Below are positions 317 through 29,276 of a stretch of DNA of 35,429 nt, one piece after another (the first letter of the stretch is position 1; each line of letters opens with the position of its first letter). Source of the DNA: an uncultured Verrucomicrobia subdivision 3 bacterium (GTDB lineage: Bacteria > Verrucomicrobiota > Verrucomicrobiia > Limisphaerales > UBA11358); the NCBI GenBank assembly GCA_903833055.1, contig CAILDU010000154.1, forward strand, positions 1-35,429. The letters are read 5' to 3'. The notes under the pieces are model-generated. The model did no database searches. It was not told the origin of the DNA and saw only the letters and a list, made by a program, of their open reading frames with translations. A program made the position numbers and the translations under genes.

Positions 317-425
317 TTTTGAGGCAAGTTGAATCGGAAAATTCGCGGTGGGCAAGTCGCCCGCCGCGAATTTTTTTCCGAAACCGAAATGAGAAATGGA
401 ATTATCACCTAACCAAAGGCAAACT

Positions 426-1688: not shown

Positions 1689-1726
1689 CACCGTTTTAGT
1701 GACACCGTTTTTTATTTTCCAATGCC

Positions 1727-3982: not shown

Positions 3983-3988
3983 AAATTT

Positions 3989-5689: not shown

Positions 5690-5693
5690 AATT

Positions 5694-9849: not shown

Positions 9850-9916
9850 GATATTGATGCGCCAAGTTTAACGGGATTTGGCCGTGATTGAATCATACCT
9901 TTCTACATTAAGCCTT

Positions 9917-10029
9917 GAAATTTCTCCATCGGATGTTTGGTCGAGCCGTTTTTGGTTGCGGTGAAAAATTCAGGTTCAAAACAAAGACTTGAAAAATTTG
10001 CGGGCGCATTCCACGTTTGGAGAAATTTC
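9917..10029. promoter_or_regulatory. Divergent promoter region with paired 12-bp inverted repeats GAAATTTCTCCA / TGGAGAAATTTC
   Basis: GAAATTTCTCCA at 9917-9928; its exact reverse complement TGGAGAAATTTC at 10018-10029, between the divergent GH28 operon and the regulator gene. Confidence 0.6.
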
Positions 10030-10033
10030 ACAA

Positions 10034-11179
10034 ATGCGAAAAAGGCAAAAACGAATTTTACTAGCGATGGGCTGGTATGACCATCGCGTGTGTCAGGGCA
10101 TCGCCAAATATGCGGAGGAGGTCGGCTGGCATCTGTGCGCGGATGTGACGAAGGAAAAAGTGATTCCGTGGGGCTGGTCGGGCGATGGAATTCTGGCGTG
10201 GCTGGGCGCGGGCGATGACTTGGCGGATTTTGTGGTGTCGGCAAAATTGCCGACGGTGGATTTCAGTTTTCGTCGTCCGCAACTGCCGTTTCCGCGCGTG
10301 CTGACGGATCACGCGCTGGCGGCGCGACTGGCGGCGGAACATTTTTTGGTGCGCGGCATGAAGAATTTCATGTTTTATAGCGCGGCGGAAAATTGGTCGT
10401 TTGACGAAGTTGGCAGTGCGTTTGTGCAGACGGTGAAAACGGCGGGTCACGATTGTCAGTGGATTCGCTGGCATAAATCATCGGCGTTCGCGACGGGACA
10501 TTTTCAGTGGAAGGACAGAATGCGCTGGCTGGCGTCGCAATTAAAAGCGGCCCCGAAACCGCTGGCCTTATTTGCGGCGTCGGATGATCACGCGTTGGAG
10601 GTGATTGAAACCTGCGAGAACATCGGTTTGGCCGTGCCGGAACAGGTGAGCATTATCGGCATGGATAATTCTTTGCTGGCGGTCGAGGCGATGCACACGC
10701 CGATTTCCAGTGTGGATCGGAATCTGGAAGCGCTGGGTTATCGCGGCGCGGAATTACTCGACCGTTTGATGCATGGCAAATCGCCTCCGAGTAAGCCGAC
10801 GCGCATTCCGCCGAAAGGTTTAATCGAACGCAAGAGCAGCGATTTGCTTGCGGTGAATCATCCGGGCGTGGCGCGCAGTTTGCAGTTTTTGTGGAAAAAC
10901 TTTCACCGTCCGATTGGCGTGGAAGATTTGGTGACGGTCGCGGCAATGTCGCGGAGCGCACTGCATCAGGCTTTTTTGGAACACATCGGGCGGCCGCCGG
11001 GCAAAGAGCTTCATCGCATCCGCATCGAAAATGCCAAAAGAATTCTGGCGCAATCAAACTTGAAACTAGAAGCGGTGGCGGAAGCATGCGGCTACCAAAG
11101 CGCGAACAGCTTCTGGCTGGCGTTCAAGCATACGACAGGTATTTCGCCCAAGCAGTTTCAGAAACGTTTTTGCAACTAA
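10034..11179 (+). CDS. XylR-type transcriptional regulator: LacI-like sugar-binding domain + C-terminal AraC HTH
   Basis: ORF 9989-11179; ATG at 10034 (MRKRQKRILLAMGWYDHRVCQGIAKYAEEVGWHL) is favoured. Sugar-binding core ALFAASDDHALEVIETCENIGLAVPEQVSIIGMDNSLLAVEA; AraC HTH RSALHQAFLEHIGRPPGKELHRIRIENAKRIL...ACGYQSANSFWLAFKHTTGISPKQFQKRF. Confidence 0.93.
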   Translation: MRKRQKRILLAMGWYDHRVCQGIAKYAEEVGWHLCADVTKEKVIPWGWSGDGILAWLGAGDDLADFVVSAKLPTVDFSFRRPQLPFPRVLTDHALAARLAAEHFLVRGMKNFMFYSAAENWSFDEVGSAFVQTVKTAGHDCQWIRWHKSSAFATGHFQWKDRMRWLASQLKAAPKPLALFAASDDHALEVIETCENIGLAVPEQVSIIGMDNSLLAVEAMHTPISSVDRNLEALGYRGAELLDRLMHGKSPPSKPTRIPPKGLIERKSSDLLAVNHPGVARSLQFLWKNFHRPIGVEDLVTVAAMSRSALHQAFLEHIGRPPGKELHRIRIENAKRILAQSNLKLEAVAEACGYQSANSFWLAFKHTTGISPKQFQKRFCN

Positions 11180-11313: not shown

Positions 11314-12227
11314 ATGAAGCAGCCTTACGAACTCGCGACCAGCCATGCAATCTATTTTTCCCGCGCGCAGACTTTAACTTTTTCGCGCCGCCGGGGATTC
11401 ACGCTCATCGAGTTGCTGGTGGTGATTGCTATCATTGCGATTTTGGCGGCGATGCTGTTGCCGGCACTCGCGACTGCAAAAAGCAAAGCCTATCAGGCGA
11501 ATTGCATTTCTAACTTAAAGCAGTCCGGCTTGGCTATGCAGATGTATTTCAATGATTTCACCGACTGGTTGCCGCCGGGTGCAGGTTCGAGAACTCCAAA
11601 CGACGACTATGGTTTGACGCAAGGGCAGTTGCCCACCTACAGCTCCAACGCAAATACTCGCAAATGGCTTCCATATTATTTGGCAAGTTATTTGGGCATG
11701 AAGGATCCATCAACGATTCCCAACACGACATATGAAGTGACCAAAGTTTTTTGCTGTGCAGGTTATGGCAGCGCGGCTGGCAATTTATCTGATGGTGCAG
11801 GTGGTAAGAGTGGTGATGACCCGACGGGAAATAATTACAGTGTGAATTACGCCAAAGGTGGTGTTGGTTCTTACACTGTAACCCAGCCTTCGAGTTCAAC
11901 GGTTTATATGGCCATGTTAAAGACGGCTTATCCGAATGGAGCCAATGCAGTCAATGGCACTGTGGGCTGGCTGCCTTTTGCAAAGAACACGCCTATGAGC
12001 CGATGAAGTTAAATCAAATTTCGGGTGCCGGAGTTCCGCTGTCGGATTTTTGGGAAATAGGCGACTATGATTGCCTGGCCGTGAACGACACCTCCAAGTT
12101 TGATCTAGCGATCACACCCGTTCACAAAACCGTTCGCAACTTTGCTTATTTTGACGGTCACGCGGGCAATCGAAAAGTCACGACCACTGCAATCGGAAGT
12201 TTGCTGCCTGGACAATATGATCAATAG
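11314..12227 (+). pseudogene. Type IV/II secretion pseudopilin (DUF1559-like), disrupted by an apparent frameshift at about 12003
   Basis: Prepilin motif [46 protein letters not shown] in ORF 11314-12006. The C-terminal part, with the typical FAYFDGHAGNRKV end, continues in ORF 12003-12227. Confidence 0.75.
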
Positions 12228-13434: not shown

Positions 13435-14385
13435 ATGCCAATGCACCATTTTGAAACCGCTAGGGAAACTTACCGAAAAATTGCCAGCAACATCGCGCTG
13501 ATCATGCGGGGGCAGGATGTCGCCACACGACAGCTGCTGGCGGCGATGGCGGCAGGTGGTCACGTCTTGCTGGAAGATTTTCCCGGCACCGGCAAGACGA
13601 CGCTTGCCAAGGCGCTCGCCAAATCTATTGACGCGCAATTTAAACGATTGCAGTTTACGCCGGATTTACTGCCGTCGGATATTCTTGGCGTTTCTATTTT
13701 CAGTCAGCGAGACCAGCAATTTCATTTTCACGAAGGCCCGGTGTTCACGAACATTCTGCTCGCGGATGAAATTAACCGCGCCTCGCCGCGCACCCAATCC
13801 GCGTTGCTCGAAGCGATGGGCGAAGCCCAGGTGAGCGTCGAAGGTGAGCGCCGAAATTTGCCGGCACTTTTCTTTGTCATTGCCACGCAAAATCCGGTCG
13901 AGTTTCGCGGCACTTATCCGTTGCCGGAGGCGCAGATGGACCGGTTCGCAATGCAATTCACGCTTGGCTACGTTTCGCCCGCCGAGGAAGTCGCCATCCT
14001 CACCGCGCAGGAACACAATCATCCGATTGACGAATTGAACCCAGCCGTATCGCTCGCTGACGTGGTGGCTTTGAAACACGCGGTGGAAAATGTCCGCATC
14101 AGCGCTGAATTGAAACGCTACGCCGTTGATCTCGTCGCGGCGACGCGCACCGCCGCCGGCGTGCAACTGGGTGCCAGCCCACGCGCGTCCATCGCGTTGA
14201 TGAAAATCGCGCAGGCCGAGGCGTTGTTCGACAATCTAGAATTTGTCACGCCGGAGCATATCCAAAAACTGGCCGTGGCTGTCATTGCGCACCGGCTCGT
14301 GCTGGATCCGCAGTCGCGCTTTTCCGGCATAACCGCGCGCGGCGTGGTGGAAGATGTTCTTAAAAAATTGCCTGTGCCAGCGTGA
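13435..14385 (+). CDS. MoxR-family AAA+ ATPase
   Basis: GGHVLLEDFPGTGKTTLAKALAKSI (Walker A), GPVFTNILLADEINRASPRTQSALLEAMGEAQVSVEG, FFVIATQNPVEFRGTYPLPEAQMDRF. Confidence 0.96.
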   Translation: MPMHHFETARETYRKIASNIALIMRGQDVATRQLLAAMAAGGHVLLEDFPGTGKTTLAKALAKSIDAQFKRLQFTPDLLPSDILGVSIFSQRDQQFHFHEGPVFTNILLADEINRASPRTQSALLEAMGEAQVSVEGERRNLPALFFVIATQNPVEFRGTYPLPEAQMDRFAMQFTLGYVSPAEEVAILTAQEHNHPIDELNPAVSLADVVALKHAVENVRISAELKRYAVDLVAATRTAAGVQLGASPRASIALMKIAQAEALFDNLEFVTPEHIQKLAVAVIAHRLVLDPQSRFSGITARGVVEDVLKKLPVPA

Positions 14386-15728
14386 AGCTGCTCTACAAAC
14401 TGATTTACTGGAATTACCACGCGACCTCCGGCGTATGGTATTGGGCGCGGCGGCGCTTCACGCTCGCGGGCATGTGTGTGGCCGGCGGTTTCGTGCTCGC
14501 GGGCGCGACGGGCATCGACATTGAGAACACCGTAATTTACCAGTCGTTCACATTGCTGTTGGCACTTTTGCTCCTCGCGTTCGCCGGCAGTTTTTTCTTC
14601 CGCGCCAAATTTTCCGTGACGCGTTTGCTGCCGCGCTTCGGCACCGCCGGCCAGCCGTTGAGCTATCGCATCAGCGTAAAAAATCTGACGGCGAAACCGC
14701 AGATCGGCTTGACGCTGCTGGAAGAACTCGCCGACCCGCGTCCGGCTTTCGACGACTGGCTTGCATTTCAATTGGCCGAAAGTCGGCGCGTCCGTCCGTT
14801 CCGCGTGTCCCAGCGTCGCCGGAAAAATCCGTTCCGCATTGCGAACGTAAAAAACGCCGAAATCCCGTCGCTGCCGCCGCGCGGTGAAGTTGAAACGAAC
14901 GTAGAATTGCTGCCGCTGCGCCGTGGCATTTTGCACCTCACCGGCGTTTCACTCGCGCAACCAGATCCGCTCGGCTTGTGTCGCGCGCTCCAGAAAATTT
15001 CCGCGCCGCAGACCGTTTTAATTTTGCCGAAACGTTATCCGTTGCCGCCGATTGCGCTGCCGGGCGCGCTGCGTTATCAGGAAGGTGGCGTGGCACTGGC
15101 GGCGAACGTCGGGCGCAGCGAGGAGTTTGTCGCGCTGCGCGATTACCGGCACGGCGACCCGTTGCGGAATATTCACTGGCGGAGTTGGGCGAAAACCGGC
15201 AAGCCCATCGTGAAGGAATTCGAGGACGAATTTTTCGTGCGGCACGCGCTCGTGCTCGACACGTTCGACGACGAGCCGAATAGCGAAATTTTGGAAGAGG
15301 CGGTGTCCGTCGCCGCGTCGTTCGCCTGCACCGTGCTGACGCAGGAATCGCTGCTTGATTTACTTTTCGTCGGCAACCATTCGTATTGCTTCACCGTCGG
15401 TCGCGGCCTCGGGCACGCCGACCAGATGCTGGAGATTCTGGCGTCCGTGAAAAATTGCGCGGACAAAAATTTTGAAATGTTGGAGCAACTCGTGTTGAAC
15501 CACGTTTCATTGGTCAGCGGCTGCATTTGTGTTTTGCAGCGCTGGGATGAACCGCGCCGCAAATTTGTCGAGAAACTCAAGGTGCTCGGCGTGCCGCTGC
15601 TGGTGTTGATCATCGTGCCACCGGGCGGCGGGATTTCCGGTGCGGGCGGTGAACTGGTGGACGCACCGGGAACCATCCGCGTTTTGGAGATCGGAAAAAT
15701 CGCGGAAGAATTGGTGAAACTAAAATGA
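14382..15728 (+). CDS. DUF58 domain protein
   Basis: Two N-terminal TM segments, then EEFVALRDYRHGDPLRNIHWRSWAKTGKPIVKEFEDEFFVRHALVLDTF, the DUF58 signature; 4-nt overlap with moxR. Confidence 0.92.
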   Translation: MKLLYKLIYWNYHATSGVWYWARRRFTLAGMCVAGGFVLAGATGIDIENTVIYQSFTLLLALLLLAFAGSFFFRAKFSVTRLLPRFGTAGQPLSYRISVKNLTAKPQIGLTLLEELADPRPAFDDWLAFQLAESRRVRPFRVSQRRRKNPFRIANVKNAEIPSLPPRGEVETNVELLPLRRGILHLTGVSLAQPDPLGLCRALQKISAPQTVLILPKRYPLPPIALPGALRYQEGGVALAANVGRSEEFVALRDYRHGDPLRNIHWRSWAKTGKPIVKEFEDEFFVRHALVLDTFDDEPNSEILEEAVSVAASFACTVLTQESLLDLLFVGNHSYCFTVGRGLGHADQMLEILASVKNCADKNFEMLEQLVLNHVSLVSGCICVLQRWDEPRRKFVEKLKVLGVPLLVLIIVPPGGGISGAGGELVDAPGTIRVLEIGKIAEELVKLK

Positions 15729-17830
15729 AGATTCCGCCATTCCTGTTGCTCGCGACACTGGCCTTCTGGGGCTGGCAGTCGGGACTTTTGTGGATTGGTG
15801 TCGCGCTGGGGGTCGTGATTGAAAGCCCACGCTTCATCAAAGCGCGCTTCGATTTGGCGGACGAAGATTTCCGTCGCATCTGGAATTTGTGTGTCGTGCT
15901 CACGTTGGCCGTGGCGGCAATTGTCTTCACGACGAATGACGAAGGTGGCGGCGGATTAATCAGCAATCCAACCGTCAATAATGCCAGCAACGCCACCGTT
16001 CACACTGCCACCACGCTGTTGCGCTGGCTGCCAATGACGTTGTTTCTGTTCGTCGCCGCGCAAAAATTTAGCGAACGCGGCGGTATTCCTTTGTCGGCCA
16101 TTTCCCTGACCTTTCGCCGTCGTCGGCACAAAACCGGTGACGCCGCGCCGGAACGCGAGGTGGATATTTCGTATCCCTATTTTATGGCGTGCCTGTTCGC
16201 GGCGGGCTTTCATCCCAATCAAGGCGCGCCCACCTATTTTTGGGGACAATGCATTTTGCTGGCGTGGGCAATTTGGCCGGCGCGTTCACGGCGTTCCGGA
16301 ATTTTCATCTGGCTAGCCGCCTTGACGCTGGCCGTCGCGATTGGCTATGGCGGCACGCGCAGCATCGGTTTGCTGGCACAGGTCAGTCAGGGTTTCGATG
16401 CGCGATTGCTTTCGTGGATGCTCCAGCCCAAAACCGATTCGAAGCAAAGCATGACTTCCATGGGTCGCATCGGAAGACTCAAACTTTCTCCGCGCATCGT
16501 CATCCGGCTCGAACCGATCAATGGCAGTCCCGCTCCAGCCTACCTGCGCGAAGCCACTTATCATTCCTATCATTCACCGAGTCAAACCTGGCAGTCCGGC
16601 GCGGCGGGAAATGAATTCGTGGATGTGCCCGCCGAAGCTGGCGGACTAAATTGGAATTTACTTCCCAGCGTGACGAACCATTCCGTCGCGCGCATCGCCT
16701 GTTATCTCAACGGCTGGTCGGCGGATTTGAAAGTGCCGGAAGGCTTGCTACCATTGCCAACGGGCAGCAGCCGGCTGGAAAATGTTCCATTGAATATCGT
16801 CGCCATCAAAATGAACCACACCGGCGCGGTGATGGCCAGCGGACCGGGCTTGGTAATTTTTAATGCGCGCTTCGGCGGCGACGCCACATTTGATTCGCCG
16901 CCGGACGCCAGCACAAATTTGTGGGATTTGTCCGTGCCCACCAACGAAGCCGCCGCGCTTGATAAAGTGATTTTGGAAATGAAAATTTCCGGCACAAACG
17001 AGGAACAAAAATTTCAAGCCGTCCAAAATTTCTTTGCCGATAAATTCACTTACAGCACTTGGCAGGGCTCCGATAAACTGGCAACGATAAACGCAACACC
17101 GCTGGCGCGCTTCCTGTTGAGCAGCCGCAGCGGACATTGCGAATACTTCGCCACCGCCACGGTTTTGCTGTTACGCGAACTCGGAATCCCAGCGCGTTAT
17201 GCGGTCGGCTATTCCGTGCACGAAGCTAGTGGCCAAGGCTATGTCGTCCGCGGGCGCGACGCCCACGCGTGGTGTCTCGCCTGGAACAGCCGCAAAAAAA
17301 TCTGGGAAGATTTCGACACCACGCCCAGCTCTTGGATTGCCACCGAAGAACAGCGCGCTTCGATGTGGCAATGGGTTTCGGATGGCTGGTCTTGGCTGAG
17401 GTTTCAATTCGCCAAGTTTCGCTGGGGCCAGACTCATCTGCGCCAATATGTATTGTGGGGCATGGTGCCGGTGCTGACCGCGCTGCTGTTTCAAATCATC
17501 TTCCGGCGCCGCAAACGAAAAACGGCGGCGGGAAATAAAAATTCGGTGGAGAAATTTTTCTGGCCGGGACTTGATTCCGAATTTTACCGGCTGGAAAAAA
17601 TGCTCGCCGCGCGGGGCGTGCCGCGCCAGCCCAGCGAACCGCTCGCCGACTGGCTGGAGCATGCACTGGCCGAACCCGCGCTCGCCCAACTCCGCGCGCC
17701 GTTGCAGGAATTGTTGCGGCTGCATTACCGCCACCGCTTCGACCCAAACGGCTTGGACGAGGCCGGTCGAAAATTACTCGCACAAAAAGTTCGCGAATGT
17801 CTGGAATCGCTTACACGTCTCGGCAGTTAA
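15725..17830 (+). CDS. TgpA-like membrane transglutaminase
   Basis: Multiple N-terminal TM helices; SSRSGHCEYFATATVLLLRELGIPARYAVGYSVHEASGQGYVVRGRDAHAWCLAWN (Cys-His-Asp transglutaminase core); C-terminal TM and DUF4129-like tail; 4-nt overlap with the DUF58 gene. Confidence 0.93.
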   Translation: MKIPPFLLLATLAFWGWQSGLLWIGVALGVVIESPRFIKARFDLADEDFRRIWNLCVVLTLAVAAIVFTTNDEGGGGLISNPTVNNASNATVHTATTLLRWLPMTLFLFVAAQKFSERGGIPLSAISLTFRRRRHKTGDAAPEREVDISYPYFMACLFAAGFHPNQGAPTYFWGQCILLAWAIWPARSRRSGIFIWLAALTLAVAIGYGGTRSIGLLAQVSQGFDARLLSWMLQPKTDSKQSMTSMGRIGRLKLSPRIVIRLEPINGSPAPAYLREATYHSYHSPSQTWQSGAAGNEFVDVPAEAGGLNWNLLPSVTNHSVARIACYLNGWSADLKVPEGLLPLPTGSSRLENVPLNIVAIKMNHTGAVMASGPGLVIFNARFGGDATFDSPPDASTNLWDLSVPTNEAAALDKVILEMKISGTNEEQKFQAVQNFFADKFTYSTWQGSDKLATINATPLARFLLSSRSGHCEYFATATVLLLRELGIPARYAVGYSVHEASGQGYVVRGRDAHAWCLAWNSRKKIWEDFDTTPSSWIATEEQRASMWQWVSDGWSWLRFQFAKFRWGQTHLRQYVLWGMVPVLTALLFQIIFRRRKRKTAAGNKNSVEKFFWPGLDSEFYRLEKMLAARGVPRQPSEPLADWLEHALAEPALAQLRAPLQELLRLHYRHRFDPNGLDEAGRKLLAQKVRECLESLTRLGS

Positions 17831-17834
17831 ATTT

Positions 17835-20800
17835 TCAAGCGCGCCGGGCATTTCGGTTTTGCGTCGTGCGCGACAAAACCGAAACCATCACCCACAACAT
17901 CAGAAACACCGCGAGTCCCGCGCCGAGCCGTGTCGGCCAATGAATTATCTTGGTGTTTTCCGCCGCGAGCAAAAACGTCATCGGCTTGCCGCCTTCTGTT
18001 TGCAACACCTGCGTGAACGCGAACCGCTCGCCGCGCACCGGCAAATTCACGCGCAGCGGCTGGATTTTGGCCGTCACGATTTCCTGCGCCTGCTGTAATT
18101 TCGTCCATTGCTCGCCGGCGGCGTTGTTGTCGTTGATACCAAGATTGTAATTCAGCCGCGACTCGCTGGACTTGCCGCCATCCGCCGCGAGCGTCCCGGC
18201 ATTGCGAAAATAAAAATCGTTTTGCGCGTTGATCAAATTGCTCGCCTGCGCGGTCTTCAAATCGTCACCAAGTTTTTTTACTTCCGCGTCTTCGTCCTTG
18301 CCGGAATAAAATTTCGCCTTCGCGCGGCTGAAATTCGCCGTGGCCTCGCGCACATTGCCGCCGGCCAGTTGCTGCCGTGCCACCGACACATCGCGACGCA
18401 CTTCGGTTTTTGCGGAAGCTTTATTCACCTGCTCCATGCGCGAATAATCCAGAATGGAAAAGCTCGACGACAGCGGCTGCGCCATCGGCGCGAGTTCACG
18501 CGTCATCGTGCCTTTCTGCAAATCCAGATAGTTATAATCCGGCGGCAGATAAACTTCCCAGTGTGCGTTCTTCAACGGTACGTCGAATTTCGGTGAAGTA
18601 AAACCAACTTCGCCGCGCGCCTTCGGAAAAACATTGGTGCCGACATAAGTCAACTCCACGGCCATCGCCTCATCGTCCGACGATTGAATTGGCAGTAGCA
18701 ATTTTCCGTCGCGCACGCTGGGCCGCACCGGTTGGCCGGCGACAAATGCCGACCAGACCTGCGCGTTCGCCGGTAATTCGACTTCGAGAAATTGCCGGCC
18801 ATTGTTACGCACGGACAGCGACATCTCGGTCATCATTTGACCGTCGTCTGCGACTACGCTGGTGAAATTTGCGCTGTCCACCAAGGCTTCCAGCACCGCC
18901 GCATCGTCGAACCGCCGCACGTCGAGCGTCAGCCGCGCGCCCGCTTTGGCGTAGCGATACGCGAGCGTGGTCGTGTTGCCGGAGACGTTCGCCCAGTCCG
19001 GCAAATCCGCTGCGTCTACGCGTTGTAAATCCGGCGCGCTGGCTTCGTTGACTTGCAGCGGCGCTTTGGCTGACACGACATAATATCCGGTTTCACGTTC
19101 CACGTTTTCGGCGGACACACCGGCCAGCTCCAGCGAATTGGTTTTCGCCGAACGCGGTTCGTCCCACGTCACGGTCAGCGTGTAATTGCCGCGCACCGGA
19201 CTTTGCAATTCCACGCGCCAGATGTTTCCGTCCTGCGCGCGGCTGCGGATGTTGGCGCCGCTGATCTCGACGTTTTGGAATTCTGGCGGCACGGTCACGC
19301 GCAATTCCTTCACCGGCGAATTGGCGATGTCGTAGCGCACCAGCGCGCGTCCGCTCACGAGCGTTTCCGTGAGCGTAAACGTGTTGACGATTTCCGTCCG
19401 CACCCACGCGGCTACCGCCTCGGTCGCCACCGACAATTTCCAATCCGGCAACGCTTTCGGTTCGGAAGAAATAAATTTGTAAGCAAGTAAATTTCCCGAA
19501 CTGGCAGCGGGCATATCACTAGCGAGTGCCGCCGCCGGAATTTCCGTCAGCCCGTCGAACGATTCCGTTTTCACCGCCACGCCCGGCTCGGCGGAAACCG
19601 CGACGAAGCCGGTGAGCTTCGCCGTGCCGAGCGGATGCACGCCCGCGATGGACAATGATTTCGGCAGTTGCTTGATATTTTTTACGAGCGCGACGGTCAG
19701 CGCGTAGCTGCCGCTCGTGCGATCTTTCAACGTCACTTCCAGCACGCGTCCGTCGGCGTCATTGCGCTCGACCTGCTGCTGGATATTTTCGCCGGTGACA
19801 TGCTCGACGCGATAACCGTCCGGCAAGGCAACTTTCAAACTGAACACGCCCGCGCGCTTGATGGTGTAATTGATTATCGCCGAAAGTGAAATCTGTTCAG
19901 CGCTCACGCGAAATTGATTTTGCACCACGACTTCAATCTGCGGCTGAACCGCCTCGGCGCGGACGCGCAGCGAAAATTGCGGGCTGGCAAAACGGAATAC
20001 GCTCACGAGTGCGCCGGAGTTTTCTGCGCCGGTGCGCGCAAATTCCTCAGCATCCACGCGCTCCAAACCAGCGGCGGACTCGATGGACAGTCCGAGTTCT
20101 TCCGCGCCGCGCAAGGCGATCAGGCCGTTCTCACGTTTCACATCCAGTGCGTGCGGCAGTTCCACGACGGCGCTCGTCGGCAACGCGTCGAACGATTTTT
20201 CCGTCTCCACCGTGAGCCGCCAGCCGAGCGGAATTCCCTTCATCAAATCCACGATTAGGATTTGCCCGCCGCCGGCATCCTTGATTTCCCAAGTGCGGAT
20301 GTCGCGGCCTTCGACACGTAGTAATTTTTGACCGGCGGGCAGTTGCACACGCGCCTGACGCAATTCGCCCTGCGTGATTTGGTAGTCTAAAGTTGCGCGC
20401 AGGTTCATCACGCCGCCGCCAAACGTGGCGAGCGCGGCGTTGCGACAAAAAACTGTCGCGGCCACTTCTTCGGCGCGCTTCACGCGCGGCGTCCAGAGCA
20501 GTTCGATCCGGTTGGCGGAACCCATTACGGCGTCAACACCCGTCGTATCCTTGTTCAAACTGCGCTTAAATGAAATCGCGCCGGGAAAATCCACGTCCGC
20601 CTCCGGCTGATTCAGCACGAGTGAAATCTGGCTGGTCAACGCCGGTGGAATGGCAAAAGCCAGTTTGCGTTTTGTCACGTCGCCGGAAATTTTCACGAGC
20701 ATTTTGATTTGCAAAGTCGTGTTGCCATTGCGATCAAAACGAACGGAAATAATTCCACCATTGCGCACGAGTGAGGCGCTGCCGCTTTTGACCGTGAACT

Positions 20801-23800
20801 GCTGCACCGCCACGTCATCGCCGAACAGCGGAACGGTTTCGCCGGATTTCGCGGCGGAAAATTGCAGCGTGGCGTCGAGCGCGGCGACGCGGTCGTTCAC
20901 GGTGCCGGAATAATTTGCCGACACAATGGAAGCTTGTGAATTGTAAGTTGTGGATCGTGAATCAGCGGCGGTCGCAGAATTGGCCGCGAACAAAATGGCG
21001 ATGGCAATGGACGCCATCACCGGCGGCAGACCGGAATCCGGCGCAGCGGGCGTGATGGGTTCCGCCGGTTTTTCTTCCGATTTTATTTTGCGGCCACGCG
21101 GCCAGTATTTCCAGACGAGCAGCGCGATGACCGCGACGACGACCATCGGAAACCCGATGATCAGCGCGTCGTGCAGCGCGCGCCATTGGATGAGCAGGCT
21201 GCCCACCGAGCCGACCATGAGCGCGAGTGCGAGCGTGAGAATGAAACTGTTGCGCTGCGCTCGCCGCCATTGCGTCCACCACACGCCGAGGCCGAGCAAA
21301 AATGCCGCCGACTGCCAGAGCATTTGCATTGTTTGGAACGTGCTCAAGCGGATGACGTGGGCGCGGATGGAAAGCGGTTCGCCGTGAACGTTCAAAACTT
21401 TCGTGAACAAAAACGGCTGGCCGGTCTGCGGCAATTCGATGCGGATGGAACGAATGCCAGCGACGACCGGCGGCGGAACTGCCAGCGCGGCGGGAGTGCC
21501 AGCGGTGCCACCGATGTTGCCGCTAAAATTTCCGCCACCACCGCCAAAGTTGTTCACGCCATTCAACGCAAAGGTTCCGCTGGCAGCCACGGGCGCAGCC
21601 ACCGCGACTGGCCGGTCAAATCCGGGGCGGTTGTCGGCCAACTGGCTTTGCGCCACGACTTCGCGCTGCTTCTCGGCGAGTTCCTGCGGCGCGGCGACCT
21701 GCACCAATCCACGTTGCGACAGTTCGGCGAACCGTTGCGCGCTGGTCGTCTCCACGCTGCCATCGGCGAACAGCACGGCACTGCGGCCATTTTGGTCGGG
21801 TGCGCTGTAAGCCAGCACCGAATCGGGCTTCAAATTATTTTCCGACATGCCGCCGCCGAGATAAACATAACGCTGTCCCGTGGCCGGATCGTAAGTGACC
21901 TTGTCGGTGCCGAGTTCACTTTTCATTTCCTCGAACGACGCGGGCAAACGATCGCTGTTGTCGCCGGAAAAAATCCGCACCGCGAGGCCGATTTGTTTCA
22001 GGTTGTTGACGGAATTTATTTTTTGCGCCTTGGATTTGGCCGCCGAAAGCGCCGGTAACAGCATTGCGCCGAGCACGGCAATGATGGCGAAGACCGCAAA
22101 CAACGTGATGATGCCATTCCAGCCACGTCGCGCCGCCGAAATGACCAGCGCGAACACCAGCAGCGCCAGAAAGCCGATGAAAAAAATCGCGCCGCCGGCT
22201 TCGCGCAACACTGCGCAATAGAACGCGAGAAATTTTCCCCACGCGTCGAGCAGTTCGTAAGTCGTGCCCTGCGTGACGCTCATGCTGCCGCCGAAATCCG
22301 AAAGCCGCAGCGTGGGCGGCACGAAGATTTGCCACTCGGCGTAAGTGTTCGGCACGTCGGTGCGCGGCGCATTGAGCTCCAGATTTTTTCCAAACGTCCC
22401 GGCCAGCGCGCCGTTGGTCTGGGCATACATGATGTCCACGGCGAATGCCTGGTCGCGATTCACATCGCGCGGCAGCGAGACGAGCACCCAGTCGCCGTCC
22501 TGCGCCGGCTTGGTCGGCTGGCCGTTGACGTAGCAGCCCCAGAGCTTCGCGTCGCGCGGCAATTGAAAACGCTGAAACTGTTTCTCATTATTTTTCACCA
22601 TGAACGACGCCTGCGTGAGCATCTCGCCCGCTTCGGTCAGCACGGAAGTAATTTGCGTGCGGTCGGCCACGGCTTCGAGCACGCGCGCCTCGGCAAAGCG
22701 TTTCACAGCCACGTTCAAGTTGTATTGGTCACCGCTGTATTGCCACGCGAGCACGACGGCGCGCGTCACGAGCGAACGGTCGGCGGCGGAAAGTTCGCTC
22801 TCGTCCACGCGCCGCAACGTGTCGCCGACGTTTTGTGCGGCGAGCTGCAAGCTCGCGGCGGTCGTCACGGCGATGGAACCGGTCTCGCGCTCCACATCCA
22901 CCGCATGAATGCCGCCGACCGGCAGCGTCGTGCCCTTCGCGTCGAATTGATAATCGTAAGTGACGACGAGCGTGTAGCCGCCCCAAACCTTGTCTTGCAA
23001 ACCAATCGTCCACACGTCGCCGCTTTGCTCTTTGCGGCGGATGTTCGGGCCGGTGAACTCGACATTCTTGCAATTCGCCGGCACGCGCACCTTGAATTCC
23101 TGCACGCCTTGACTGACGAGACCATAACGAATCGTCGCACTGCCGCCGACCAGTCCGTCGCCGATGGTGACGAGATTGAAAACATCCGCCACGACGCGCG
23201 CGGCCAGTTTTTCCGTGCCGATAGCGAGCTGCCAGTCCGGCTGCTCGGCGGTGTAAGCGAGAATTTCGTCTGCGCGGTTCGGCAATTGGTTGACGGGCAT
23301 TTCGCGCAGACCGGAAATGGCGCCGGTCTTCAAGCGGATGCCGGGAACCGCCGCCGCGCCGATCTGCGAACTTTCCTTCGCCGCGCCGGTCACGCGCAGC
23401 GGCGCGATGCTAATCTGTTCGGGAAATGTTTTCTGCGCTTGCTCCAATTGAACTTCGATTTGCCGCTGGCCGAGAGCGCGCTGTGAAAAATTCACGGTCA
23501 GTTTGCCGGCGGTAACTTTCCAATCTTCAATGCCGTCACCGCGCACGTCGGCGACGGCGAAACCGGTTTGCGGCAGTAATTCCAGCGAGTAAACACCAGC
23601 CTTTTCTACGTTCAGCGAAAGTGTGTGTGCGACGACCAGTCGCGTTTCTTCGAGCCGCGTGTTCACGCGATCGGTGACGGCGATGACCGGTTCAATGTGT
23701 TTCAATTTCAGCGCCAGCGTGAACGGCTGCGCGTTAAAACGATACGCGACGACGGCTTTGTCCGGCGCGTTGACCTGCCGCAGACCGTTGAGCGAGGCGA

Positions 23801-24731
23801 CTTCCACCAGCGTGTCTTCGGCGGAAATCGTGAGCGATCCGGATTCGCGTTCGACACCGAGTGGCTGCGGCGGATTCAACGCCGAATTTTCCGCCGCACT
23901 TTCCACTGCCTGCTCGGAATAGATCGTGAGGTCGTAAGAATTTTCCACCGGCTTGATAAATTCCACCGTTAATGTCTGACGGTCGCCCTCGACGGTCGTG
24001 TGCCAGTCGCGAATTTGTTCACCGTCAAGTTTGGTCAGCGCCTGCGACGCGGGCAACGTGAGCGTAAGCTGCGCGGCGTTGCCTTGGACAATGTCGTAGT
24101 GAAACTTGCCGGTGTATTTGATGACCGTCGGCGTGACGAGCGCGGTGAGGGTGGAATCCGCTGTGAGCAGCGCCTTACGCGCAACCGCCGCGACCTTGCC
24201 CTGCCAGCGCAACGCGACGGTCTGATCCGCGCCGAGAAAACCTTTCACGCCAGAGACGCCGCCGGTTTTGAAATTTTCCAGCAGCGTGCCGTTGAGCAAC
24301 TGGACTTCCGTGTTTGTGCCGTTGGCCTGCGCGGTGATGGATGCGATGGTCGCCGCCGGGCCGGTGAACGTAACTTGGTTCCACGGTTCGTCGTGCTGGA
24401 TTTTGGCGATGACCTCAAGACCGAACTTGAAATGTCCGGCGCGCGACGCGACTAGAAAATAGCGATTGCCGTTACGGACGATTTTTAGCGCGTCCGGCAA
24501 TTTCGGCGGCAGCACAGCGACGTCGCCATCCAGAATTTTTACGGAACATTCGCCCGCGCCGGTGGCGTCGGCGGTGACTTCCAGCGTGAATCGCGCCTCG
24601 TCGTCCGCGAACTGCGCGACGTAGCGGATTTCACCGACCGTGAGCGTCGCCGCCGGCGTGACGACGGTTTTGGCGGTGGCGTTGAAGTTCAAAACCAATC
24701 CGGTTAGCAGGGCGGCGATGATCGTTTTCAT
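17835..24731 (-). CDS. Giant (2298 aa) envelope protein: two paralogous extracytoplasmic lobes around a central TM / pseudopilin-like / TM segment
   Basis: Single uninterrupted ORF with signal peptide MKTIIAALLTGLVLNFNATAKT. Repeated blocks in both halves (VERETGSIAVTT/VERETGYYVVSA; VKNNEKQFQRFQLPRDAKLWGCYVNGQPTKP/VRNNGRQFLEVELPANAQVWSAFVAGQPVRP). Central AVLGAMLLPALSAAKSKAQKINSVNNLKQIGLAVRIFSGDNSDRLP. Confidence 0.93.
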   Translation of the reverse strand: MKTIIAALLTGLVLNFNATAKTVVTPAATLTVGEIRYVAQFADDEARFTLEVTADATGAGECSVKILDGDVAVLPPKLPDALKIVRNGNRYFLVASRAGHFKFGLEVIAKIQHDEPWNQVTFTGPAATIASITAQANGTNTEVQLLNGTLLENFKTGGVSGVKGFLGADQTVALRWQGKVAAVARKALLTADSTLTALVTPTVIKYTGKFHYDIVQGNAAQLTLTLPASQALTKLDGEQIRDWHTTVEGDRQTLTVEFIKPVENSYDLTIYSEQAVESAAENSALNPPQPLGVERESGSLTISAEDTLVEVASLNGLRQVNAPDKAVVAYRFNAQPFTLALKLKHIEPVIAVTDRVNTRLEETRLVVAHTLSLNVEKAGVYSLELLPQTGFAVADVRGDGIEDWKVTAGKLTVNFSQRALGQRQIEVQLEQAQKTFPEQISIAPLRVTGAAKESSQIGAAAVPGIRLKTGAISGLREMPVNQLPNRADEILAYTAEQPDWQLAIGTEKLAARVVADVFNLVTIGDGLVGGSATIRYGLVSQGVQEFKVRVPANCKNVEFTGPNIRRKEQSGDVWTIGLQDKVWGGYTLVVTYDYQFDAKGTTLPVGGIHAVDVERETGSIAVTTAASLQLAAQNVGDTLRRVDESELSAADRSLVTRAVVLAWQYSGDQYNLNVAVKRFAEARVLEAVADRTQITSVLTEAGEMLTQASFMVKNNEKQFQRFQLPRDAKLWGCYVNGQPTKPAQDGDWVLVSLPRDVNRDQAFAVDIMYAQTNGALAGTFGKNLELNAPRTDVPNTYAEWQIFVPPTLRLSDFGGSMSVTQGTTYELLDAWGKFLAFYCAVLREAGGAIFFIGFLALLVFALVISAARRGWNGIITLFAVFAIIAVLGAMLLPALSAAKSKAQKINSVNNLKQIGLAVRIFSGDNSDRLPASFEEMKSELGTDKVTYDPATGQRYVYLGGGMSENNLKPDSVLAYSAPDQNGRSAVLFADGSVETTSAQRFAELSQRGLVQVAAPQELAEKQREVVAQSQLADNRPGFDRPVAVAAPVAASGTFALNGVNNFGGGGGNFSGNIGGTAGTPAALAVPPPVVAGIRSIRIELPQTGQPFLFTKVLNVHGEPLSIRAHVIRLSTFQTMQMLWQSAAFLLGLGVWWTQWRRAQRNSFILTLALALMVGSVGSLLIQWRALHDALIIGFPMVVVAVIALLVWKYWPRGRKIKSEEKPAEPITPAAPDSGLPPVMASIAIAILFAANSATAADSRSTTYNSQASIVSANYSGTVNDRVAALDATLQFSAAKSGETVPLFGDDVAVQQFTVKSGSASLVRNGGIISVRFDRNGNTTLQIKMLVKISGDVTKRKLAFAIPPALTSQISLVLNQPEADVDFPGAISFKRSLNKDTTGVDAVMGSANRIELLWTPRVKRAEEVAATVFCRNAALATFGGGVMNLRATLDYQITQGELRQARVQLPAGQKLLRVEGRDIRTWEIKDAGGGQILIVDLMKGIPLGWRLTVETEKSFDALPTSAVVELPHALDVKRENGLIALRGAEELGLSIESAAGLERVDAEEFARTGAENSGALVSVFRFASPQFSLRVRAEAVQPQIEVVVQNQFRVSAEQISLSAIINYTIKRAGVFSLKVALPDGYRVEHVTGENIQQQVERNDADGRVLEVTLKDRTSGSYALTVALVKNIKQLPKSLSIAGVHPLGTAKLTGFVAVSAEPGVAVKTESFDGLTEIPAAALASDMPAASSGNLLAYKFISSEPKALPDWKLSVATEAVAAWVRTEIVNTFTLTETLVSGRALVRYDIANSPVKELRVTVPPEFQNVEISGANIRSRAQDGNIWRVELQSPVRGNYTLTVTWDEPRSAKTNSLELAGVSAENVERETGYYVVSAKAPLQVNEASAPDLQRVDAADLPDWANVSGNTTTLAYRYAKAGARLTLDVRRFDDAAVLEALVDSANFTSVVADDGQMMTEMSLSVRNNGRQFLEVELPANAQVWSAFVAGQPVRPSVRDGKLLLPIQSSDDEAMAVELTYVGTNVFPKARGEVGFTSPKFDVPLKNAHWEVYLPPDYNYLDLQKGTMTRELAPMAQPLSSSFSILDYSRMEQVNKASAKTEVRRDVSVARQQLAGGNVREATANFSRAKAKFYSGKDEDAEVKKLGDDLKTAQASNLINAQNDFYFRNAGTLAADGGKSSESRLNYNLGINDNNAAGEQWTKLQQAQEIVTAKIQPLRVNLPVRGERFAFTQVLQTEGGKPMTFLLAAENTKIIHWPTRLGAGLAVFLMLWVMVSVLSRTTQNRNARRA

Positions 24732-24814: not shown

Positions 24815-25435
24815 ATGAACCCGGAAGGTGAACTGCTGGCGCGCTGTCAGCACGGCGACGCGACGGCGTGGGACATTCTGTTCGACGCGCACTACGCGGC
24901 GGCGGGACGCTTCATCTTCCAGCTTTCGTCCGATTTCACGGTCGAAGACGCCGAGGAAATCTGCCAGGAAGTTTTTCTGTCGGTCATCAAGAACCTCAAT
25001 TCATTTCAGGGCGAAAGCCAGTTGCAGACGTGGATTTTCCGCATCGCCGCCAACAAGGCGCGCGATTATCGCGAGAAACGCAACGCCGCCAAGCGCGGCG
25101 GCGGACAGGCGACAATTTCGCTGCACGCAGAAAATCCGGAAACTGGCCTGACGCCTGATCCGCCGAGCACCGCGCCCGGCCCGGATGAATTTCTGATGAA
25201 CGCGGAATCCACCGGACTGGTGCGTGAATCGCTCGGCCAGCTTGGTGAACCGTGCCGCGAAATCGTGGAGCTGCGCTATTTTGGCGACTTGAGTTACGAC
25301 GAGTTGAGCGCGACGTTGAAACTGAATCCGAAGACCGTCAGTTCGCGCCTGAGCAAATGCCTTGATCGGCTGGAGGAAATTGCGCGAAAAATATTTTCGC
25401 GGGAAAATTCGGATTTTTCCCGTCCAACAGATTGA
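24815..25435 (+). CDS. ECF-type RNA polymerase sigma factor
   Basis: Sigma-70 region 2 (DAEEICQEVFLSVIKNLNSFQGESQLQTWIFRIAANKARDYREKR) and region 4 (REIVELRYFGDLSYDELSATLKLNPKTVSSRLSKCLDRLEEIARK). Confidence 0.96.
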   Translation: MNPEGELLARCQHGDATAWDILFDAHYAAAGRFIFQLSSDFTVEDAEEICQEVFLSVIKNLNSFQGESQLQTWIFRIAANKARDYREKRNAAKRGGGQATISLHAENPETGLTPDPPSTAPGPDEFLMNAESTGLVRESLGQLGEPCREIVELRYFGDLSYDELSATLKLNPKTVSSRLSKCLDRLEEIARKIFSRENSDFSRPTD

Positions 25436-25442
25436 CGAACGA

Positions 25443-26831
25443 ATGGAACCGGAACGCAACATCGAAAAACTGCTGCGCGCTTATGCGAAGAAACGCCGCG
25501 CGAATGCCGGCGATGCGTTCACGCTGCATCCGACCACGCGCCGGCGATTACAAAGTGAAATTGAAAAGCAATTTGCCGAATCGCCGGAGGAAGAATCAGT
25601 TTCGCTGTGGCAGTTGTTCCGGCAGCAATGGGCGGTGCTGGCGGGTTTCGCGCTGGTGATTTTCTTTGTGGCAACGATGTTTTTGCCGAACTTGAGCAAG
25701 GCCAAGATGAAAGCGCAAAGCGCTTCCGCGATGTCCAACCTCAGGCAAATCGGCGTAGCGGCACAAATCGTCGCTGGAGACAACAACGGTCGGCTGCCGG
25801 CTACGCTGGATGAATTGACGAATAATCATTTGCTTTCTGAAAAAGTTTTGACCGACCCAATGAGTGGTAAGCAGTTTGTGTTTGTCGTTGGCGGTGAAAG
25901 ATTGGATGCGCTGTCAAACAACACGGTGCTGGCGTATTCGCCAACGGACAAAAAGAACCGCGCGGTGCTGCTGGCCGACGGTTCGGTGCAACTGATGAGC
26001 CGGAAACAATTCGACGATTTGGATCAGCGCGCGTTGAGGGCGCCCGCTGTGCCGATGGAAGTTACGAGCACGCGGCGCGAGGTAGTCGAACAAAGTCAGT
26101 CGAGCGACAAGTTATCTTTTGACCGTCCGGTTCCGGCGGCCGCGCCCATGACTTCCAGTGGAACCTTCGCGTTGAATGGTGTGAACAACTTCGGTGGCGG
26201 TGGTGGTGGAAAAGATTTTGGCTTGGAAAATAAAGACCGTTTGGTGGCCACAGCAGCACCGGCCGCGGCTCAAGCGAAACAGCTTTTCAAAGACGCAGAG
26301 CGCGCCAAGTCCGAAGCGCTGGGCGTGAACAATAATTCGCAACGGTTTCGGAACGCTGTCGCCACTACCGCGCCGGTGCTGGTGTCGTTTGAGTTGCAGC
26401 AGAATGGCAACGACCTGGCCGTGGTGGACGCCGACGGCTCGGTCTATCAAGGTTCGCTCCAGACCAACAGCCCGGTTTCGCAAAACTTATTGCCGGCGGT
26501 CACACCGTCCGCTGTGCAAAATCAAATTTCCAACGTGGCGAAAAATGAAAATGGGGCGGGCAACAATTTTTACTTCCGCGTCTCCGGCCAGAATCGCACG
26601 TCGAAACAAAACGTGGTGTTCACCGGCAATTTGATTCCACTGGCCGCCGCGACAACCTCAAACGCGCAACAAACTCCACCGGGAAATAATTCCAATGCGC
26701 GTGGCGAGTTGCAATCAGCGGCGATTGGTCAATTGGAGGGTATGCTGATTAACAACTCGAGCATTGCAGGAATTGTGACAGTGGATGCCACCAACCAAAT
26801 TGAAATCTATGCCGTGCCAACGACGCCTTGA
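25443..26831 (+). CDS. Sigma-linked single-pass membrane protein with pseudopilin-like segment (possible anti-sigma / surface sensor)
   Basis: ATG at 25443, 7 nt after the sigma stop. Short charged N-terminus, TM (WAVLAGFALVIFFVATMFLPNLSKAKMKAQSASAMSNLRQIGVAAQIVAGDNNGRLP), AVLLADGSVQLMS and SGTFALNGVNNFGGGGGG shared with the giant protein. Confidence 0.85.
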   Translation: MEPERNIEKLLRAYAKKRRANAGDAFTLHPTTRRRLQSEIEKQFAESPEEESVSLWQLFRQQWAVLAGFALVIFFVATMFLPNLSKAKMKAQSASAMSNLRQIGVAAQIVAGDNNGRLPATLDELTNNHLLSEKVLTDPMSGKQFVFVVGGERLDALSNNTVLAYSPTDKKNRAVLLADGSVQLMSRKQFDDLDQRALRAPAVPMEVTSTRREVVEQSQSSDKLSFDRPVPAAAPMTSSGTFALNGVNNFGGGGGGKDFGLENKDRLVATAAPAAAQAKQLFKDAERAKSEALGVNNNSQRFRNAVATTAPVLVSFELQQNGNDLAVVDADGSVYQGSLQTNSPVSQNLLPAVTPSAVQNQISNVAKNENGAGNNFYFRVSGQNRTSKQNVVFTGNLIPLAAATTSNAQQTPPGNNSNARGELQSAAIGQLEGMLINNSSIAGIVTVDATNQIEIYAVPTTP

Positions 26832-27047: not shown

Positions 27048-27686
27048 ATGAAAAAACTAGCCATTGTTGTTGGCGTTCTAGCCGTGCTGGGACTATTCGT
27101 TTTAATCCTAATCGGAGTTGCGGGCGGCAGCTATAACCGCCTCGTGAAACTTTCACAAGGAGTGGATAGTCAATGGGCGCAGGTGCAGAATGTCTATCAA
27201 CGACGAGCCGACCTCGTCCCCAATCTGGTGGCGACGGTTTCCGGCGCGGCCAATTTCGAGAAATCCACACTGACGGAAATCACCACTGCGCGAGCCTCGG
27301 TGGGACAGGTAAAAATTGACCCCAACGCTGCGCCGACCGACCCCGCCAAACTGGCCGCATTTGAACAAGCGCAGGGCCAACTTGGCTCCGCTTTGTCCCG
27401 CCTGCTAGTAGTGGTGGAAAAATATCCTGACCTTAAGGCGACGGAAGGTTTCCGCGATTTGCAGGCGTCGTTGGAAGGAACGGAAAACCGTATCAGCGTT
27501 GAACGCCGGGATTTTAATGCTGCCGTGCAAAATTATAATACCGCCGTTAAATCCTTTCCGGCGGTGTTCTATGCCGGGTTCTTTGGTTTCACCGCAAAAC
27601 CTTATTTTGCCGCCAGTGCCGGAGCTGAGACGCCGCCGAAAGTTTCATTCGATTTCAATCAACCGGCACCTGCTGCCAAACCTTGA
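27048..27686 (+). CDS. LemA family protein
   Basis: N-terminal TM then YNRLVKLSQGVDSQWAQVQNVYQRRADLVPNLVATVSGAANFEKSTLTEITTARASV...FRDLQASLEGTENRISVERRDFNAAVQNYNTAVKSFPAVFYAGFFGF. Confidence 0.97.
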   Translation: MKKLAIVVGVLAVLGLFVLILIGVAGGSYNRLVKLSQGVDSQWAQVQNVYQRRADLVPNLVATVSGAANFEKSTLTEITTARASVGQVKIDPNAAPTDPAKLAAFEQAQGQLGSALSRLLVVVEKYPDLKATEGFRDLQASLEGTENRISVERRDFNAAVQNYNTAVKSFPAVFYAGFFGFTAKPYFAASAGAETPPKVSFDFNQPAPAAKP

Positions 27687-27689
27687 ACC

Positions 27690-28481
27690 GTGCGCAATCT
27701 CTTCGCCATCCTGATTTTGCTGGCTAGTTTTCGGCTATGCGCGGAAGAAGTGATTCCGCCCGCGCCAGCGGCTTATTTCAATGACTATGCCCACGTCGTT
27801 TCGACCGGGACGGCGGCGCAATTGAATCAGACACTGGAAAATTTTGAGCGGCAAAGTTCCGACCAGATTGTGGTGGCCGTTTATCCCACGATGCAATCGG
27901 ATTCGTCGGTGGAAGATTACACAGTGCGCGTAGCGCGGGCGTGGCAAGTGGGACAAAAGGCTAAAAACAACGGCGCGGTGCTGTTCGTCTTCGTGCAGAA
28001 TCACAAACTATTTTTGCAGGTCGGCTATGGCCTTGAAGGTGTCCTGCCGGATGCGCTTTGCAAGCGGATCATTGACGAGCAGATTACGCCTCGTTTCAAG
28101 GCCGGTGATTTTGACGGTGGATTGACGGCTGGTGTGCAGGCAATTCTTGCAGCGACAAAAGGCGAATATAAGGGCACTGGGGCGACCGTGGGAGAGCAAC
28201 GGCAGGTGGTTCATCTCCGTGATAATGCGCAGGCGGCGATTCCGCTCATCATTTTGGTAATTGTGGTGGTTCTTTTTTTCCTCATTCGCACTCGGTCATT
28301 GTTGTCTGGCGGCCTCCAGTATTGGGGCGGCGGGTATTCCAGCGGTCGTTCCTATGGCGGTGGATTTTCTAGTGGAGGAGGCTTTTCTTCTGGAGGCGGA
28401 TTTAGTGGAGGCGGAGGCGGGGGGGGATTTTCGGGTGGTGGGGGAAGTTTTGGTGGCGGCGGCGCGGGAGGGAGCTGGTAA
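27690..28481 (+). CDS. TPM-domain (YgcG-like) membrane protein with Gly/Ser-rich tail
   Basis: GTG start; YFNDYAHVVSTGTAAQLNQTLENFERQSSDQIVVAVYPTMQSDSSVEDYTVRVARAWQVGQKAKNNGAVLFVFVQNHKLFLQVGYGLEGVLPDALCKRI; TM; (G/S)n tail. Confidence 0.93.
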   Translation: MRNLFAILILLASFRLCAEEVIPPAPAAYFNDYAHVVSTGTAAQLNQTLENFERQSSDQIVVAVYPTMQSDSSVEDYTVRVARAWQVGQKAKNNGAVLFVFVQNHKLFLQVGYGLEGVLPDALCKRIIDEQITPRFKAGDFDGGLTAGVQAILAATKGEYKGTGATVGEQRQVVHLRDNAQAAIPLIILVIVVVLFFLIRTRSLLSGGLQYWGGGYSSGRSYGGGFSSGGGFSSGGGFSGGGGGGGFSGGGGSFGGGGAGGSW

Positions 28482-28484
28482 CTT

Positions 28485-28883
28485 ATGCACCCGAAAACTT
28501 TTGCCAAGCACCTGGAACACGACGGCATCGTCGCGGCCATCCATGACGCCGAACACAAGACCACTGGCCAGATCCGCGTCATCATTAGTTCCAAACACAC
28601 CGACGATGCCGTGGCCGAAGCGCAAAAGGAATTTCTCCGCCTTGGTTTGAACAAATCTCCCGAACGGAACAGCGTGCTAATTTTTGTAGCCCCGCGCGCA
28701 CACAAATTTGCCGTCATCGGCGATGAAGCCGTGCACGCCAAATGCGGCGACGAATTTTGGCGACAGCTTGCAGACGCAATGGCCGGATATTTTCGCAAAT
28801 CCGAATTTACGCCCGGCATTATCCACGGATTGCAAAAGGCCGGCGAACTGCTCGCGGAACATTTCCCGCGTCACCGGGGATGA
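28485..28883 (+). CDS. Second TPM-domain protein
   Basis: IVAAIHDAEHKTTGQIRVIISSKHTDDAVAEAQKEFLRLGLNKSPERNSVLIFVAPRAHKFAVIGDEAVHAKCGDEFWRQLADAMAGYFRKSEFTPGIIHGLQKAGELLAEHFP. Confidence 0.88.
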   Translation: MHPKTFAKHLEHDGIVAAIHDAEHKTTGQIRVIISSKHTDDAVAEAQKEFLRLGLNKSPERNSVLIFVAPRAHKFAVIGDEAVHAKCGDEFWRQLADAMAGYFRKSEFTPGIIHGLQKAGELLAEHFPRHRG

Positions 28884-28892
28884 ATTTACACC

Positions 28893-29276
28893 ATGAAAAC
28901 CTGTCCCTATTGTGGTGCTAAATATCCTGACGGCACACCTTGTTGTGTGATTGACCAAACGCCTCTATCACCTCCGCAACCAACACCGCATCCCACTTCC
29001 CATCCGGTTACGGAATCACTACCACCCGCCGAATTTGAATTTGCTCCGCTCACGGAAGAACAGAAGCAGATGGATTTGGTCACATTGGTCAGGTGCGGCA
29101 CGCTGCTTTCGGCAGACCTGATTAGCACCCGACTTCGCGCGGCAGGGATTGAGACGTTCATTCCCGACCAATCTGTCGTGCAGGCCATGGGGTTTAATTT
29201 AAACTCGGTTGGCTACGTTCGGGTTCAAATATCACCCGCTGACTATGACGCTGCGAAAGAGATTATTTCCGGTTGA
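28893..29276 (+). CDS. DUF2007-like signal-transducing protein with N-terminal Zn-ribbon-like motif
   Basis: MKTCPYCGAKYPDGTPCCVIDQTPL and LVRCGTLLSADLISTRLRAAGIETFIPDQ...VGYVRVQISPADYDAAKEIISG. Confidence 0.75.
   Translation: MKTCPYCGAKYPDGTPCCVIDQTPLSPPQPTPHPTSHPVTESLPPAEFEFAPLTEEQKQMDLVTLVRCGTLLSADLISTRLRAAGIETFIPDQSVVQAMGFNLNSVGYVRVQISPADYDAAKEIISG

Follow-up and report, generated by a model that had tools for sequence, protein, structure and literature searches.

The stretch of DNA analysed in the present work (hereafter, the window) comprises 35,429 nucleotides of contig CAILDU010000154.1, from an uncultured Verrucomicrobia subdivision 3 bacterium. It harbors a gene coding for a protein of 2298 residues (hereafter, the giant; Table 1). 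The gene is present in a single copy in its genome, where the other matches correspond to the pilin-like module alone, and the ORF is intact across many independent genomes, which rules out an assembly artefact. Probing Pfam and NCBIfam with the giant did not retrieve anything above the cut-off, in agreement with the earlier note on this DNA, which had recognised no named family; the same was true of a sequence search on the PDB. CBM35 was discarded as a candidate, its Pfam match being sub-threshold (20 bits versus a cut-off of 28, over 49 residues). The literature searched contained no paper describing the family.

As for the rest of the window, positions 396-11179 embed a pectin-use cluster (three GH28, a pectinesterase with a GDSL domain, a GH43, and an MFS transporter), which also includes an AraC-type regulator whose sensor domain is like periplasmic binding proteins. 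A free-standing prepilin-like DUF1559/N_methyl protein, with many alike in the genome, is encoded at 11314-12006, and a LemA protein, two TPM-domain proteins, and a DUF2007 protein are encoded in a row at 27048-29276. In locus L052, LemA and TPM genes lie near the MoxR, DUF58, and transglutaminase genes of the giant.

Table 1. Features of the giant gene and of its neighbours, in positions of the window.
Feature	Position	Strand	Basis
MoxR-type AAA ATPase	13435..14385	(+)	AAA_3 E 2e-63
DUF58 protein	14382..15728	(+)	Pfam
TgpA-like membrane transglutaminase with DUF4129, convergent with the giant	15725..17830	(+)	Transglut_core E 2e-16, DUF4129 E 4e-9
Giant protein gene, 2298 aa, ATG start	17835..24731	(-)	ORF and translation
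C-terminal transmembrane helix, residues 2269-2287, then RTTQNRNARRA	17871..17927	(-)	hydropathy
Helical coiled-coil-like stalk, residues about 2093-2220	18072..18455	(-)	AF2 helices 834-961 of model, low-confidence gap
Half 2 beta array, residues 1264-2078	18498..20942	(-)	profile A3 match; AF2
Repeat M4 of half 2 (partial, weaker), residues 1942-2051	18579..18908	(-)	hhalign
Repeat M3 of half 2, residues 1767-1941	18909..19433	(-)	hhalign
Repeat M2 of half 2, residues 1592-1766	19434..19958	(-)	hhalign
Repeat M1 of half 2, residues 1429-1591	19959..20447	(-)	hhalign
Internal signal peptide, residues about 1235-1255	20967..21029	(-)	conserved AxA after last central helix
Further central transmembrane helices, residues about 1130-1207	21111..21344	(-)	hydropathy, alignment, AF2 helices
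Inserted type-IV-pilin-like module, residues 874-1012	21696..22112	(-)	profile match, AF2
First central transmembrane helix, residues about 845-866, then ARRG	22134..22199	(-)	hydropathy
Half 1 beta array, residues 26-818	22278..24656	(-)	profile A3 match
Predicted N-terminal signal peptide, residues about 1-21, MKTIIAALLTGLVLNFNATA/K	24669..24731	(-)	sequence
ECF sigma factor, divergent neighbour	24815..25435	(+)	TIGR02937 E 4e-27; Sigma70 domains
Presumed membrane anti-sigma factor, pilin-type partner	25443..26831	(+)	position, one-TM layout

Duplication, internal repeats, and distribution of the giant

The earlier note had described the protein as a head-to-tail duplication, the two halves of which repeat the same ordered blocks. 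All the blocks quoted there fall inside the ORF and in the order given, and the duplication is borne out by the comparison of the halves. BLASTP aligned residues 1-1238 with residues 1239-2298 over 809 columns, with 30% identity (E 7e-101); furthermore, hhalign, a negative outcome of which would have refuted the note, was carried out on profiles built from 12 relatives per half and revealed a significant match over 786 columns (probability 100, E 7.6e-96). A membrane-proximal motif also matches separately between the halves (IRSIRIELPQTGQPFLFTKVL / IQPLRVNLPVRGERFAFTQVL, BLASTP E 7e-4). The duplication is thus well supported, and we consider it, like the existence of the family, practically certain. 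The description of the product as two membrane-anchored secreted parts, with half 2 ending in a transmembrane helix, is supported as well.

Each half consists, in turn, of about three and a half tandem repeats of ~165 residues (modules of about 165-175 residues). When the unit profile was split, hhalign matched M1 with M2 (E 4e-20), M1 with M3 (E 9e-23), and M2 with M3 (E 1e-20), the match of M1 with M4 being weaker (probability 59, E 9e-5). According to the AF2 model of residues 1260-2298 (31 rows, mean pLDDT 81.7), an all-beta chain is followed by a helical stalk and a C-terminal helix, and each half is predicted to be a chain of beta-sandwiches. Among solved structures, Foldseek matched the half 2 model best with ribophorin I/Ost1 (E 1.5e-9) and with integrin alpha subunits, the legs of which likewise represent a beta-sandwich chain; however, identity is about 10% and the TM-scores are low, as for flexible chains, so we read this likeness only as one of fold, that is, as tandem beta-sandwiches. 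No Pfam match and no PDB sequence match linked the giant to ribophorin I.

Within the class, a profile of both halves matched 94 out of 390 genomes, and within the phylum 80 out of 394 (E 1e-8), mostly twice per frame, in frames of about 2050-2800 residues. The double form is therefore present in about a quarter of the sampled genomes of the class, as well as in other classes of Verrucomicrobiota, and judging from these sequences it is old. When GTDB genomes were scanned with the alignment of the window type, 44 loci were retrieved; most of them bear a Verrucomicrobia label, with subdivision 3 and Limisphaerales among them. The genus of the window holds two types, the window type and a canonical type, sharing about 26% identity. 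The family also appears in MAG records (L151, L157, L160, L162, L171) that bear the names Methylacidimicrobium, Proteobacteria, Klebsiella pneumoniae, and Lentisphaerae; these are probably mislabelled or from mixed bins.

In L114, L116, and L117, three adjacent co-directional ORFs (A, B, and C) harbor one unit each, their lengths being 1236/1466/1300, 1112/1110/1403, and 1196/1531/1637 residues, respectively; most of them have an N-terminal signal peptide and C-terminal helices (gene starts not curated). In L115 the second and third ORFs are fused, with the signal peptide of the latter retained inside, and in L209, L210, L212-L214, L217, and L218 the second and third units form one ORF with an internal signal-peptide-like segment. 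Since B and C occur as one fused ORF in other classes but as separate ones in L114, L116, L117, and L211, a simple polarity with fusion as the derived state is not evident.

The unit tree places A, B, and C in a single group (support 97). On the basis of the AU test, the split ORFs B and C were rejected as direct orthologues of half 1 and half 2 (H1 and H2): neither H1+B (p 0.0036) nor H2+C (p 0.008) was compatible with the data, with the caveat of long branches, whereas all H2 as a single clade is not rejected (p 0.27). The fusion of two adjacent secreted paralogues, proposed in the earlier note together with a search for split adjacent ORFs, is plausible in that separate secreted units do occur and coexist with fused states; the relationship of the separate ORFs to the halves, however, is not one of simple orthology. 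Either fusion may have taken place repeatedly, or there may have been interconversion between the joined and the split form. Single-unit homologues of 450-600 residues (L119-L124), which may represent outgroups, are followed by a gene matching the inner membrane protein CreD in the two loci scanned.

The central bundle and the junction between the halves

Several hydrophobic helices lie between the halves in all the full-length relatives. In the giant this bundle includes the pilin-like module, made up of a transmembrane helix, a long alpha-1, and a small alpha/beta domain ending in VLFADGSVE. In the profile search the transmembrane/alpha-1 part matched the solved pilins GspG and PilA (5wda, E 1e-5), and the AF2 model likewise has a long helix and a small alpha/beta domain, with a pLDDT of 80-94 over most of it. 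Foldseek retrieved no match at E 0.001 for the whole central model, which is of low confidence outside the pilin-like part. The module sequence, WNGIITLFAVFAIIAVLGAMLLPAL, lacks a prepilin leader with its cleavage site and Glu5, and Pfam yielded no N_methyl match in the giant; being without leader or Glu5, the module is not expected to be processed or assembled. According to the alignment, it is absent from canonical-type relatives. Its nearest sequence in the window is that of the pilin-type partner (47% identity over 196 residues, linker included). In a small tree, the modules of giants and those of partners form two groups, with the sole exception of L154, whose partner module groups with those of the giants, a hint that the two genes may have exchanged modules a second time. 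The ALNGVN linker motif was discarded as a general feature, since it is not conserved.

The last hydrophobic segment of the bundle, MASIAIAILFAANSATAADS, begins at residue 1239 (21.02-20.96 kb) and has a predicted cut at SATA/ADS (A1255/A1256). An AxA follows the last central helix in 36 out of 61 relatives, as against 47 out of the 308 remaining central helices, with an odds ratio of 8, and the hydrophobic core of the segment is shorter than that of the other helices (median 17 versus 20); the p-values for the internal-segment comparisons (6.6e-12 and 5e-9) are optimistic, the sequences being related. The N-terminal signal peptides of the same proteins have an AxA at the same rate as the junction segments (11/20). 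Moreover, B+C fusions from other classes have signal-like junctions too (ARA/ADG, AQA/PV, NARA/DVA), while a few relatives, such as L038, L040, and L131, have no clean AxA site. The Met of MASIAIAILFAANSATAADS is replaced by Leu, Val, and Ile in relatives; since it is not conserved, it does not represent a retained start codon, and a translation restart at M1239 is ruled out.

The earlier note had considered this segment a signal-peptide-like scar. The position and the signal-like character were correct, whereas the term scar does not hold, since the signal-peptidase features are kept throughout the phylum. In principle, two secreted genes might have fused, leaving the second signal peptide as non-functional debris; the architecture would fit, and the L115 fusion lies beside relatives with separate genes. 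However, the double form extends across several classes, and the junction retains its signal-peptidase-type form while its flanks have diverged to about 23% identity, which argues that it is no scar. Furthermore, half 2 would require a translocation signal at the junction, since the loop before the last helix, KYWPRGRKIKSEEK, has a strong positive charge that, according to the positive-inside rule, probably places it in the cytoplasm. Debris is therefore a very improbable explanation. The last helix would instead export half 2, with the AxA site on what the same rule places as the periplasmic side. The internal signal peptide is well supported, and we deem it likely to be functional.

Whether the signal peptide is also cut has to be weighed against a single uncut polytopic protein, in which the junction would be nothing more than a signal-anchor helix, with the two rods remaining an intramolecular pair linked through the central bundle. 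An uncut signal anchor would yield a topology identical to that of the cleaved model. The junction segment is the last central helix in every full-length relative examined, and some AxA sites (L038, L040) are poor; moreover, the fusion is retained in most genomes, which uncut linkage would account for. On the other hand, an AxA is found in 59% of the junctions versus 15% of the other helices, as at N-terminal signal peptides, the core is shorter, and separate ORFs serve in L114, L116, and L117. On this basis, the uncut protein seems rather unlikely, and we infer that the precursor is probably cut by signal peptidase I.

Gene context and a possible role in envelope signalling

The ECF sigma factor possesses both sigma regions 2 and 4, and the probable ATG of the partner lies 8 nt past its stop. 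The partner has about 65 cytoplasmic residues, a transmembrane helix, and then a pilin-like module of the giant's type with its linker; it has no Pfam or NCBIfam match, its N-terminus matching no anti-sigma family, and it is from position and architecture that it is presumed to be the anti-sigma factor. The window and its close relatives share this organization, that is, ECF sigma factor, pilin-type membrane partner, and then the divergent giant. In canonical loci, the ECF sigma factor, a long membrane protein, and the giant are all co-directional, and the partner carries vWF_A, VWA, and YfbK_C domains. A vWA/YfbK-type protein is encoded directly upstream on the same strand in 25 out of 32 loci (10 of those 25 were used to build the vWA profile); some of the remaining seven are of the window type (L183 and L188, which are contigs of L157 and L145). 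An ECF sigma factor is embedded in the operon of the giant in 19 out of 32 loci, and is absent beside L181, L185, L188, and L191 and beside long window-type forms. The synteny of ECF sigma factor, membrane partner, and giant is conserved across the class. This linkage, like the repeats inside each half and the pilin-like insert common with the neighbouring gene, had been missed in the earlier note.

We can depict the following scenario. The precursor would consist of a signal peptide, half 1 as a periplasmic rod, an inner-membrane helix bundle, which in the window has captured a pilin-like domain, then the internal signal peptide, and finally half 2 as a second chain with its stalk and C-terminal anchor. 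The internal signal peptide would export half 2, which signal peptidase I would free from half 1, giving two membrane-anchored rods in equal amounts. Together with the ECF sigma/anti-sigma pair, the rods would form an envelope-sensing or envelope-maintenance module; the anti-sigma factor would carry, as a fusion, a pilin-like domain here but a von Willebrand A domain in most of the relatives. The pilin-like domains common to giant and partner represent a possible contact point, their direct contact being a guess.

A two-part envelope polyprotein, cut by signal peptidase I and working with the ECF sigma/anti-sigma module, is in our opinion slightly on the probable side. Taken by itself, a part played by the giant in the sensing or upkeep of the envelope alongside the ECF pair, which we infer from gene context, is tentative and falls a little short of an even chance. 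In its fullest form, in which a phylum-wide polyprotein would yield two paralogous beta-rods acting as the periplasmic sensor of the ECF circuit, with pilin-like domains that were exchanged in this clade touching to signal, the scenario is doubtful.

Proteins of over 2000 residues, old and common in Verrucomicrobiota, have thus been covered by no curated family. With units separate, fused, or mixed among related lineages, they offer a natural test of internal signal peptides in bacteria; moreover, the gene context provides a specific hypothesis on their role, ECF envelope signalling, and the module present in both giant and partner a specific one on their contact.

Comparison with known systems

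The module resembles type IV pilins and DUF1559-type prepilins in its transmembrane helix plus alpha-1, its DG motif, and its GspG and PilA profile matches, but it is embedded in a large protein, without leader or Glu5. The locus recalls ECF sigma/membrane anti-sigma pairs and YfbK-type vWA proteins, in that an ECF gene is followed by one for a one-TM protein; here, however, the partner is undescribed, and in the window a pilin-like domain replaces the vWA. Among the prokaryotic polyproteins cut by signal peptidase, the cytochrome b/c1 polyprotein FbcH of Bradyrhizobium is encoded by one ORF with an internal signal peptide. The giant shares with it the single ORF, the internal signal peptide, and the predicted export of the second part; unlike FbcH, to which it is unrelated in sequence, its two parts are paralogues and its cleavage is predicted.

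Finally, the bifidobacterial PFNA cluster (pkb2-fn3-aaa/MoxR-duf58-tgm) pairs a large secreted, membrane-linked beta-domain protein with genes for a MoxR ATPase, a DUF58 protein, and a transglutaminase (PMC8430577). The same trio is found together in the window, and one or more of its genes lie beyond the giant in seven genomes, the window's included. The giant might accordingly stand outside the ECF circuit, as a surface protein with a structural or adhesive function that this trio would serve, in the manner of the FN3 protein of PFNA. This appears unlikely, since the MoxR-DUF58-transglutaminase adjacency is restricted to close relatives of the window whereas the ECF linkage is wider, and Pfam revealed no fn3 domain in the giant up to E 1; nor was a kinase domain of the pkb2 Ser/Thr type found among the window proteins scanned. 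The giant differs from the PFNA protein in being doubled, with an internal signal peptide, in having an ECF sigma pair as its regulator, and in being linked to the trio in the clade of the window only.
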